From Streptomyces sp. TSRI0281 (GTDB lineage Bacteria > Actinomycetota > Actinomycetes > Streptomycetales > Streptomycetaceae), in assembly GCF_001905125.1 (NCBI RefSeq), contig NZ_LWLE01000001.1:958880-1022879 (forward strand): 64,000 nt of DNA, written 5' to 3'. Below the pieces are notes generated by a model. It was not told where the DNA came from. It saw nothing but the letters and a program-made list of their open reading frames with translations, and did no database searches. The position numbers and the translations under genes are program-made. Below are positions 8,550 to 10,893 of this stretch, in pieces (within the stretch, counting starts at the first letter, position 1; each line of letters opens with the position of its first letter).

Positions 8550-8578
8550 TTGAGGGCCCCGACGGGGTTTCCTAAGCT
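8550..8578 (+). promoter_or_regulatory. sigma-70/HrdB-like promoter of a small transcription unit
   Basis: TTGAGG (8550-8555), a 17-bp spacer and TAAGCT (8573-8578) give a good housekeeping promoter just after the phytase stop codon, reading toward the structured RNA. Transcription should begin near 8584-8586. Confidence 0.6.
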
Positions 8579-8609
8579 GATGGCACACAAGAGAGGAGGT
8601 GTTCCGGAA

Positions 8610-8648
8610 GTGATTTATCTTCGGACTCGTGAGGTGACTGCGGGCTGA
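8610..8648 (+). CDS. 12-codon ORF at the 5' end of the structured RNA
   Basis: GTG at 8610 follows a near-perfect AGGAGGT (8594-8600) at 10-nt spacing. It encodes MIYLRTREVTAG and ends at TGA 8646-8648. The last codons form the 5' arm of the long-range stem and the stop codon sits in the loop of an inner hairpin, so a ribosome translating the ORF would unfold domain 1. That is the arrangement of attenuator or sensor peptides. Translation is inferred from the ribosome site alone. Confidence 0.45.
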   Translation: MIYLRTREVTAG

Positions 8649-8708
8649 CGCCCGTCGTCGCGCTCTTGCAGTGCAGGCCGGTCGCCGGCCAATCCCAAGC
8701 AGTCACCG

Positions 8709-8775
8709 ACCCGCAGGCTCGCCGGTAAGTCCGGCCGGCCCCTCCGCAAGGAGGGACCAGAGCCTGCGGGTTTCT
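8709..8775 (+). terminator. three-way-junction terminator of the small transcription unit
   Basis: The 12-bp closing stem (8709-8720 with 8760-8771) carries two inner hairpins and is followed by TTTCTG. It sits about 75 bp before the convergent pdxH stop codon, so it would protect pdxH from antisense transcription. Confidence 0.5.
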
Positions 8776-8844
8776 GCGTGTCCGGGGCCGTGGGGCTCCA
8801 CGCGCCGTACGGCCCCGGCCACCGGCCCACGGGACCTACGGCAC

Positions 8845-9597
8845 CTACGGGCAGAGCCGCTCCACCCGCCACCCCGTGCCGCCGACGTCCGCCCCCTGCC
8901 CCGCCGCGTCCTCGCGGACGTACCGCAGCCGGTCGTGCAGCCGGTTCTCGTGGCCCTGCCAGAACTCGATGGTCTCCGGGACGACGCGGAAGCCGCCCCA
9001 GTGCGGCGGGGCCGGGACCTTCTCGCCCTCGGGGTAGCGCGCGGCCAGCTCCTCGTACCGGGTGACCAGCTCCTCGCGCGAACCGATGACCGTGGACTGG
9101 GCGCTCGCCCAGGCGCCCAGCTGGGAGCCGTGCGGGCGGGTGCGGAAGTAGGCGACGGTCTCCTCGCGCGAGACCCGGGCCGCGGTGCCGGTGACGATGA
9201 CCTGGCGGGCCAGCGGGTGCCAGGGGAAGAGCAGCGAGACATACGGGTTCGCGGTCAGCTCGCGGCCCTTGCGGGACCCGTAGTTCGTGAAGAAGACGAA
9301 GCCCCGGCTGTCGTACCGCTTCAGCAGGACCGTGCGGGAGGACGGGCGGCCCTCCGGGGTGGCCGTGGAGACCACCATGGCGTTCGGCTCGTGCAGCAAG
9401 CCACCCGCCGCGACCTGGCGGAACCAGCGGGCGAACTGGTCCATCGGATCGGGGCTGAGGTCCTGCTCGGCGAACCGCTCCGAGCGGTACTGCTCGCGCA
9501 TGGCCGCCGGATCGGTGGTGCAATCGAAACCGGGGGCGCGAACGGAGGTGGGAGCGGAGGAAGCAGCGGAAGGGGCCTTGTCGTCTGGTGTGGGCAC
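8845..9597 (-). CDS. pdxH: pyridoxamine 5'-phosphate oxidase
   Basis: A 250-aa FMN flavoenzyme that oxidises pyridoxamine-P or pyridoxine-P to pyridoxal 5'-phosphate. Seen in order: '[12 protein letters not shown]', '[21 protein letters not shown]', '[19 protein letters not shown]' (FMN phosphate site), '[10 protein letters not shown]', and the C-terminal '[17 protein letters not shown]' with 'WRVERLCP' at the end (substrate binding). GTG at 9597 gives an N-terminal extension of roughly 30 residues over typical enzymes; the frame is open further upstream but crosses the promoter shared with the divergent citrate synthase gene. The product supplies the cofactor used by serC and others. Confidence 0.95.
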
Positions 9598-9783
9598 GGG
9601 GTCATCCTGCCGCAGCGGCCGAGTGTGCCCGGCGGGGAGGGGTGGTAACCGCCGGCCGCCGAAATGAGGTCCTGTGCCGGATGTCACGCTTCCCCGCATC
9701 GTGGGAACCCGCCAATATCTTGTGGCAGGCCCCTGTGGCCTTCGTACAGCCACCGCCCGCCGCCGAACTGAGGGAGCCGCCTG

Positions 9784-10893
9784 ATGTCCGACTTCGTACC
9801 GGGACTAGAGGGAGTCGTCGCCTTCGAGACGGAGATCGCCGAACCGGACAAGGAAGGTGGCTCGCTCCGATACCGCGGGGTCGACATCGAGGACCTCGTC
9901 GGCCATGTGTCCTTCGGCAACGTCTGGGGTCTGCTGGTGGACGGGGCGTTCAACCCCGGTCTGCCGCCCGCCGAGCCGTTCCCGATCCCCGTCCACTCCG
10001 GTGACATCCGGGTCGACGTGCAGTCCGCGCTGGCGATGCTCGCCCCCGTGTGGGGCCTGAAACCGCTCCTGGACATCGACGAGGCGACCGCCCGCGACGA
10101 TCTGGCGCGGGCCGCCGTGATGGCCCTGTCCTACGTCGCCCAGTCGGCACGCGGCCAGGGACGGCCGATGGTGCCGCAGAGCGAGATCGACAAGGCGGGC
10201 TCCGTGGTGGAACGGTTCATGATCCGCTGGCGCGGCGAGCCGGACCCCCAGCACGTCAAGGCCGTCGACGCGTACTGGACCTCGGCCGCCGAGCACGGCA
10301 TGAACGCCTCCACGTTCACCGCCCGGGTCATCGCCTCCACCGGCGCCGATGTGGCCGCCGCGCTGTCCGGTGCGGTCGGCGCCATGTCGGGCCCGCTGCA
10401 CGGCGGCGCGCCCTCCCGCGTCCTCGGCATGATCGAGGAGATCGAGCGCACCGGTGACGCGTCCGCGTACGTGAAGCAGGCCCTGGACCGCGGCGAGCGT
10501 CTGATGGGCTTCGGACACCGCGTGTACCGGGCCGAGGACCCCCGCGCCCGCGTCCTGCGCCGCACGGCCAGGGAACTGGCCGCACCGCGCTTCGAGGTGG
10601 CGGAGGCCCTGGAGAAGGCCGCGCTGGAGGAGCTGCACGCGCGGCGCCCCGACCGGGTACTGGCGACGAACGTGGAGTTCTGGGCGGCCATCGTGCTGGA
10701 CTTCGCGGAGGTCCCTGCGCACATGTTCACGTCGATGTTCACCTGCGCCCGTACCGCGGGCTGGTCGGCGCACATCCTGGAGCAGAAGCGGACGGGCCGC
10801 CTGGTGCGCCCCTCGGCGACGTACATCGGCCCCGGCACCCGCAACCCGGCGGAGATCGCCGGTTTCGACCAGCTGGCGAACCTGGGGAACTGA
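9784..10893 (+). CDS. citrate synthase 2 (short, type II-like)
   Basis: A 369-aa protein of the citrate synthase family, shorter than the main Streptomyces CitA. It carries '[12 protein letters not shown]', the catalytic His loops '[15 protein letters not shown]' and '[11 protein letters not shown]', '[16 protein letters not shown]', and the C-terminal CoA region '[20 protein letters not shown]'. All three family active-site regions are present, so it should condense acetyl-CoA or a related acyl-CoA with oxaloacetate. Such second copies are often annotated as citrate synthase-like and could prefer another acyl-CoA. It is divergent from pdxH, with a terminator downstream. Confidence 0.9.

Follow-up and report, generated by a model that had tools for sequence, protein, structure and literature searches.

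In the Escherichia coli rpsO message, a pseudoknot acting with protein S15 stops ribosomes from proceeding (entrapment). The RNA analysed here, Ms_IGR-5, is alike in that its pseudoknot overlaps the initiation footprint, but it stands alone, has no known protein ligand and is linked by the knot from its ORF to a terminator hairpin far away. Leader-peptide attenuators of the trpL, leuL and ilvL types in Streptomyces lividans, as far as the available parts of their description go (PMC8079986), likewise have a short ORF that ends in stems near a terminator; Ms_IGR-5 differs from them in three respects: none of the downstream genes scanned is both co-directional and recurrent, the antiterminator is not conserved, and no regulatory codon is repeated. 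The dual-function sRNAs VcdRP and SgrS, in the excerpts of their descriptions consulted, are also small RNAs with a small ORF, whereas the unpaired codons of the Ms_IGR-5 ORF are near-neutral. Extended Shine-Dalgarno (SD) sites in Staphylococcus aureus (PMC13009471, in partial text) share the combination of long SD pairing with weak or near-cognate starts, but they serve protein genes and uORFs, whereas Ms_IGR-5 is a stand-alone pseudoknotted RNA.

Rfam files the family itself (RF02471, Ms_IGR-5) as an "Actinobacteria sRNA" that is non-coding and without known function, with a structure in which the SD is paired with the ORF end and no pseudoknot is drawn. The published accounts examined, in the portions available, mention no ORF. 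These partial texts report that the S. lividans member SLIV_16488 is an expressed sRNA validated by RNA-seq (PMC8079986), that the S. avermitilis member is an sRNA transcription unit (PMC8780764), that ncMSMEG15794c of Mycobacterium smegmatis overlaps IGR-5 (PMC10454040), and that ribosome-protected reads map to the M. abscessus and M. smegmatis homologues and, in the same source, to classical non-coding RNAs as well (PMC4974804). The RNA family is already known, and the ORF, the pseudoknot, the revised 5' structure, the extended 16S pairing and the near-neutral codons 2-4 set out below appear not to have been described in the partial texts of the literature searched, a scope that ended short of the founding paper (Li et al. 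2013) and of supplementary files. The available part of Panek et al. 2008 gave no match in a search for the RNA's neighbouring genes.

Identity, distribution and genomic setting

The window, a stretch of 64,000 nucleotides from Streptomyces sp. TSRI0281, contains the RNA on its plus strand at 8585-8779 (predicted ends). This segment matches the full RF02471 model (positions 1-184 of 184) at 96.4 bits (cmscan, E = 6.5e-22, gathering cut-off 45) and is therefore the same RNA; no other Rfam family exceeds its gathering score within the window. An earlier note, made from the letters of this DNA, knew of no described family with such a layout, but the family is a described one. The conditions that the note set for its own refutation came out in its favour: homologues show compensatory base changes in the stems and in the pseudoknot, the 12-codon ORF is conserved, and the transcript that it expected has published counterparts in S. 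lividans and S. avermitilis, strains other than that of the window.

The genome carries one copy of RF02471. The covariance model detects the family in 120 of 121 Streptomyces genomes, in 192 of 296 genomes of the class and in 70 of 396 genomes of the phylum, while R1, a sequence-only model of the 5' part of the RNA, found it in 134 of 396 phylum genomes (E <= 0.001) in the same kind of 396-genome draw and under the same strict filters. The motif was present in 39 of the 40 R1 matches inspected, which implies that the Rfam model, at these settings, misses many members; Ms_IGR-5 looks about twice as widespread as that model shows. A pattern scan of named genomes returned at least 80 records, all actinobacterial among the matches listed. 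Neither the phage nor the plasmid collection gave a match at blastn sensitivity, and an origin from phages or plasmids was rejected on that basis. Copies were not detected in one of the 121 Streptomyces genomes (G008), in five genomes of family f8 (G338, G370, G381, G429 and G456) or in Corynebacterium glutamicum, which was among 14 control genomes giving no match; genomes of this kind are possible losses and could help to find the function. Two Streptomyces genomes hold a second, weaker RF02471 match (G069:C1:1815352-1815493 at 27.8 bits and G078:C353:2-141 at 44.3 bits), possibly a duplicate or a decayed copy.

A promoter of the sigma-70 type, TTGAGG-17-TAAGCT, can be read on the plus strand at 8550-8578, with the -35 element at 8550-8555, a 17-nt spacer and the -10 element at 8573-8578; its position predicts an RNA start at about 8585. 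Among 134 homologous loci, 121 have a TANNNT box ending 6-7 nt 5' of the RNA, and 94 of these 121 also have TTG at a spacing of 15-19, whereas a TANNNT box lies 4-10 nt ahead of only 0.6% of positions picked at random from these loci. The earlier note had read the same promoter and called it a good housekeeping one. The upstream neighbour is phytase-like, with a score under the curated cut-off of the phytase family. On the 3' side the RNA adjoins pdxH, which is convergent (minus strand, 8845-9753), and the nearest identified plus-strand gene, encoding citrate synthase, begins 1 kb away at 9784, beyond pdxH. The window sequence and its ORFs place no protein gene on the predicted transcript and no plus-strand gene directly 3' of the RNA, as the earlier note had said in arguing against a normal riboswitch or attenuator.

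ORF, helices and pseudoknot compared across loci

Comparisons were based on 134 loci (56 and 18 from RF02471 searches and 60 hand-picked from matches), which were reduced to 118 non-redundant loci by removing near-identical ones. Alignment A1 consists of 72 of the 118, hand-chosen with the most distant omitted. A held-out set of 40 loci was hand-picked from R1 matches, and 39 were usable after L315, which has no motif, was dropped; it should be noted that one member (G376) was already a weak Rfam match and that several of these loci are close relatives of each other. Because R1 covers the 5' part of the RNA including the stop codon, only the 3' partner of the pseudoknot is independent of how the held-out loci were found, and because loci are related, changed pairs represent fewer independent events than loci.

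In the window, the SD GGAGGTG (8595-8601, plus strand) precedes a 12-codon ORF, MIYLRTREVTAG, which occupies 8610-8648 on the same strand, starts with GTG at 8610 and ends with TGA at 8646-8648. All 134 loci have a GAGGTG motif with a stop codon exactly five codons past its GAG (TAG in 109, TGA in 20 and TAA in 5). The distance from the SD to this GAG is spread over all three frames (66, 36 and 32 loci), so the start codon must shift to stay in frame. Counting ATG, GTG or TTG at an SD spacing of 5-13, 107 of the 118 non-redundant loci have a start in the frame of the stop, while only 5 and 1 have one in the remaining frames; for ATG alone the counts are 51, 0 and 0. The 107 in-frame starts comprise 51 ATG, 39 TTG and 17 GTG, and the other 11 loci have an in-frame CTG, ATT or ATC (10 loci) or ACG (one locus). 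ORF length is nearly constant, with 12 codons in 94 of the 107. The stop is even kept against pairing: column 68 of A1 is T in 72 of 72 rows, and in 61 of them the opposite base is G, with which a C would pair better at the cost of the stop; A69 is opposed by C in 34 of 72, and changing it to G would allow pairing but give TGG. Among the held-out loci the stop is five codons on in 39 of 39, and the start is in frame in 35 of 39 as against 1 and 4 in the other frames, both within the region that R1 covers. The GTG-started ORF behind AGGAGGT that the earlier note had picked out is conserved in frame, start and stop, and this comparison indicates that the ORF is both conserved and read by ribosomes.

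The predicted fold has an energy of -102 kcal/mol (z = -4.5), and none of 200 shuffles was as good. Helix P1 (9 bp) joins codons 8-11 of the ORF (GGTGACTGC, 8633-8641) to GCAGTCACC (8699-8707), with 97.4% of cells paired in the 72 loci and both-side changes in 4 of 9 pairs. Helix P4 (12 bp; 8708-8719 with 8761-8772) closes the terminator domain, and its 3' arm runs into the T-rich end GGGTTTCTGCG; 98.1% of its cells are paired, and 10 of 11 counted pairs have both-side changes. Both the long-range stem from the ORF end and the second domain with its 12 pairs, two inner hairpins and T-rich end had been drawn in the earlier note, and covariation upholds P1 and P4. The inner hairpins are P5 (8721-8739, GCCGG-TAAGTCCGG-CCGGC; 75.6% of cells paired, both-side changes in 5 of 5 pairs), which presents the pseudoknot loop, and P6 (8740-8755, CCCTCC-GCAA-GGAGGG), which is read from the fold and the alignment and varies in length among loci. 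Because P1 and P4 abut, they probably stack. Inside P1, the strand CAATCCCAA (8690-8698, consensus GAATNCC) forms part of an internal loop and is conserved in A1. The hairpin drawn there in the same note, whose loop contains the stop codon, is preferred by the window sequence taken alone, but the alignment backs a different, variable and weak helix, P2 (8644-8650 with 8683-8689), whose 5' arm contains the stop codon (77.4% of cells paired, both-side changes in 6 of 8 pairs). For the structure as a whole, none of 500 shuffles of the 72 loci reached it on any measure, and versions slid along the alignment had 31-43% of cells paired. RNAalifold independently recovers P1 and P4, and not P2 or P5.

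The helix that Rfam draws between the SD and the ORF end (model positions 14-19 with 55-60) could pair in 92.1% of cells, but it has no both-side change in the 72 loci and no excess over shuffles. A model of the free RNA, of a kind that cannot include the knot, gives P1 a probability of 0.63 and leaves the SD unpaired at 0.43.

Comparison across loci supports a pseudoknot that is absent from the Rfam consensus structure. In the window, CGGACT (8622-8627) in ORF codons 5-6 pairs with AGTCCG (8728-8733) in the loop of P5; in general terms, codons 5-6 (GGACN) are complementary to NGTCC in the P5 loop of the terminator domain. The aligned core is GGAC:GTCC in 106 of 118 loci, with changed cores CGAC:GTCG (2 loci), GGAT:ATCC (2), CGAT:GTCG (1) and GGAC:GTTC (1), the last two of which each include a G-U pair; six alignment rows are shifted by one or gapped at the core. 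A fifth pair forms in 89 of 117 loci, against a mean of 46.6 and a maximum of 66 in 10,000 shuffles. Among the held-out loci, where the 3' partner was sought anywhere in 130 nt and not at a single fixed place, an exact 5-mer partner is present in 28 of 39 and absent in 11, against a mean of 10.8 and a maximum of 20 in 2,000 swaps. Where the held-out core itself is changed (CGAC, AGAC or TGAC), a matching partner is present in 18 of 19 loci, against a mean of 6.0 and a maximum of 13 (2,000 swaps), although with related loci and three types of core the independent changes are fewer than 18. Taken with one flanking pair, the pseudoknot has 86.3% of cells paired in the 72 loci and both-side changes in 3 of 6 pairs; the fifth pair is missing from 21 of 72 and the flanking one from 38 of 70. 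This covariation means that the third base of a Thr codon tracks a hairpin loop 100 nt away. A competing partner for GGAC in the ORF, GGTCC beside the SD, was rejected: 86% of its cells can pair with no both-side change, whereas the P5-loop partner covaries.

Ribosome engagement and alternative readings

A message that is folded into a knot and also read by ribosomes suggests an RNA that may work by being translated. We give even weight, for and against, to the proposal that Ms_IGR-5 is a stand-alone, translation-gated RNA acting through ribosome engagement, and the potential for binding to the 16S tail is the next body of evidence that bears on it. When the 16S tail of the window's own genome (GGCTGGATCACCTCCTTTCT, read from L255) is applied to all loci and G-U pairs are allowed, 16-22 contiguous bases can pair in 126 of 134 loci, whereas none of the 629 other GGAGG sites that served as controls within these flanks reaches 16; runs of Watson-Crick pairs only are 7-15 long in the 134 loci and do not exceed 11 in the controls. 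Counted from the start of the 12-codon ORF, the knot strand occupies +14 to +18, about where toeprints place the leading edge of an initiating ribosome.

The window copy (8595-8605) and seven other loci form 11-12 contiguous pairs, as against at least 16 in the other 126; the window copy, whose SD is the core of this complementarity, has T (GTGTTCC) at a site where most loci carry G or A. With only 12 contiguous pairs in this copy, extreme SD strength is dispensable here. As a genome-wide pattern of the window's own genome the extended SD was rejected, with 40 matches (two mismatches or fewer) as against 52 in the control. A separate observation is that in six loci (L286, L289, L290, L054, L297 and L302) the RNA bears an exact complement of 10-12 nt to its own SD, for example GGACCACCTCC. 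Complements of at least 9 nt occur in 9 of 173 loci and in 0 of 173 in the reversed control, and they possibly constitute an SD-hiding switch in a few loci.

Long 16S pairing could also be the whole story, if the RNA were a trap or sponge for 30S subunits in which the 16S tail is bound, the knot blocks progress in the manner of the rpsO knot with S15, and translation of the ORF is a by-product. The 126 loci with at least 16 pairs, the knot near the leading edge of the initiating ribosome and the weak starts (TTG or GTG in 56 of 107) would all suit such a trap. A trap, however, requires neither a frame nor a stop, and start, frame and stop are all kept, the stop even against pairing, so on this analysis we judge it unlikely.

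The dual-function sRNA or micropeptide mRNA that the earlier note had listed beside a translation-sensing sRNA would act through its 12-residue product. Near-constant ORF length is what such a peptide would lead one to expect, as are the recurring residues RTREV and the low rate of change in part of the frame. In 286 close pairs drawn from 106 ORFs of 12-codon length, codons 8-9, at the start of P1, show no change, and the knotted codons 5-7 have a dN/dS of 0.62. RTREV, however, is located in the knotted and paired codons, so constraint on the RNA alone can account for its recurrence. Codons 2-4, outside all helices, have a dN/dS of 0.81 in the close pairs and 0.93 in a sample of all pairs, and codons 10-12 reach 1.9, values that argue against the micropeptide reading. 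At their third position codons 2-4 carry T or A in 237 of 318 cases, which is unusual in such GC-rich genomes. The peptide thus seems not to be what is conserved, and we regard a peptide function as improbable. The earlier note had overlooked this near-neutral evolution, as well as the pseudoknot and the long 16S complementarity of most relatives examined.

A local role in cis, whether by leading or attenuating the following gene or through regulated read-through into a convergent gene, would be in keeping with the ORF, stems and terminator, which resemble those of an attenuator, and with a helix that Streptomyces copies allow between the ORF end and the 5' arm of the terminator. This antiterminator helix is unconserved (64% of cells, no both-side change). 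The probability of P4 is 0.93 with no ribosome, 0.94 with a ribosome at the start and 0.93 with one at the stop (knot omitted), so that modelled ribosomes leave it unaffected and the antiterminator idea was rejected; P1 and P2 do vanish when a modelled ribosome sits at the stop, an outcome built into the model, in which that ribosome occupies the 5' arms of both. Neighbouring genes were prepared for 16 named loci and 20 proteins from 15 of them were scanned, leaving out L148 and several sides. Of the 10 downstream genes scanned, seven are convergent and three co-directional. Behind the RNA in five of the 10 lies a convergent gene for a THAP4-type heme-binding (nitrobindin-like) protein, in M. 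colombiense, Nocardiopsis, Nonomuraea, Actinomadura and Actinoallomurus (L149, L137, L144, L154 and L211), and this recurring opposite-strand gene could point to a local role. The other five all differ, however: the remaining convergent genes encode DUF559 and UDG proteins, and the co-directional ones Peptidase_M24, GNAT and His_Phos_1 proteins, so that no co-directional gene recurs among the 10, while the window has pdxH. For these reasons we hold a cis role to be very improbable. That the RNA is purely non-coding, as annotated, with an ORF arising by chance or as a by-product of RNA conservation, is scarcely credible, for although much of the ORF is base-paired and its conserved codons need no coding cause, frame, start and alternative stops are kept where pairing makes no demand, and ribosome-protected reads are reported for two mycobacteria in the available part of PMC4974804.

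A possible route from ribosome binding to signal

For the translation-gated RNA that we propose, the housekeeping promoter would give rise to a stand-alone transcript of about 190 nt, whose leader, in most of the relatives examined, could pair over 16-22 nt with the 3' tail of 16S rRNA (G-U allowed). Pairing of that length should give very firm capture of the 30S subunit, in many cases at a start codon that is itself weak (TTG, GTG or a near-cognate). Five codons in, the pseudoknot would tie the message to the hairpin loop of the terminator domain. Initiation would then abut the knot, elongation would have to break both the knot and P1, and termination would occur in P2; because the strands of these three elements lie in or at the ORF, the RNA could not stay folded while a ribosome elongates or terminates on it. 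The RNA could accordingly exist in a free and knotted state, in a 30S-bound state with the knot intact or just displaced, and in a translated and opened state. Firm capture of the 30S subunit would be followed by a hold at the knot, and the change of state would be the signal.

As all the modelled states include the terminator and no gene is regularly positioned to receive read-through, the likely output is either what becomes of the RNA or an effect in trans, the latter through the access of a partner protein or RNA. The lack of a recurring co-directional gene likewise makes read-through a poor candidate for the output, and we prefer the state of the RNA itself. In its most specific form, which we put forward tentatively and consider possible rather than probable, Ms_IGR-5 would be a phylum-wide, stand-alone translation sensor of a new kind. 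A very long 16S helix would hold the 30S subunit, a knot in the ORF codons would gate the entry of initiating ribosomes into elongation, and the resulting RNA state (knotted, held, opened or degraded) would signal in trans with neither a downstream gene nor a functional peptide.

The RNA concerned is a widely kept actinobacterial sRNA (120 of 121 Streptomyces genomes and, with R1, 134 of 396 genomes of the phylum) that has been filed as non-coding. If these proposals are true, the structure of the Ms_IGR-5 family would be revised, and the role of the RNA would become approachable by a handful of point mutants in Streptomyces or M. smegmatis. If it is translated as well as pseudoknotted, Ms_IGR-5 would be a candidate sensor of ribosome state for actinobacteria.
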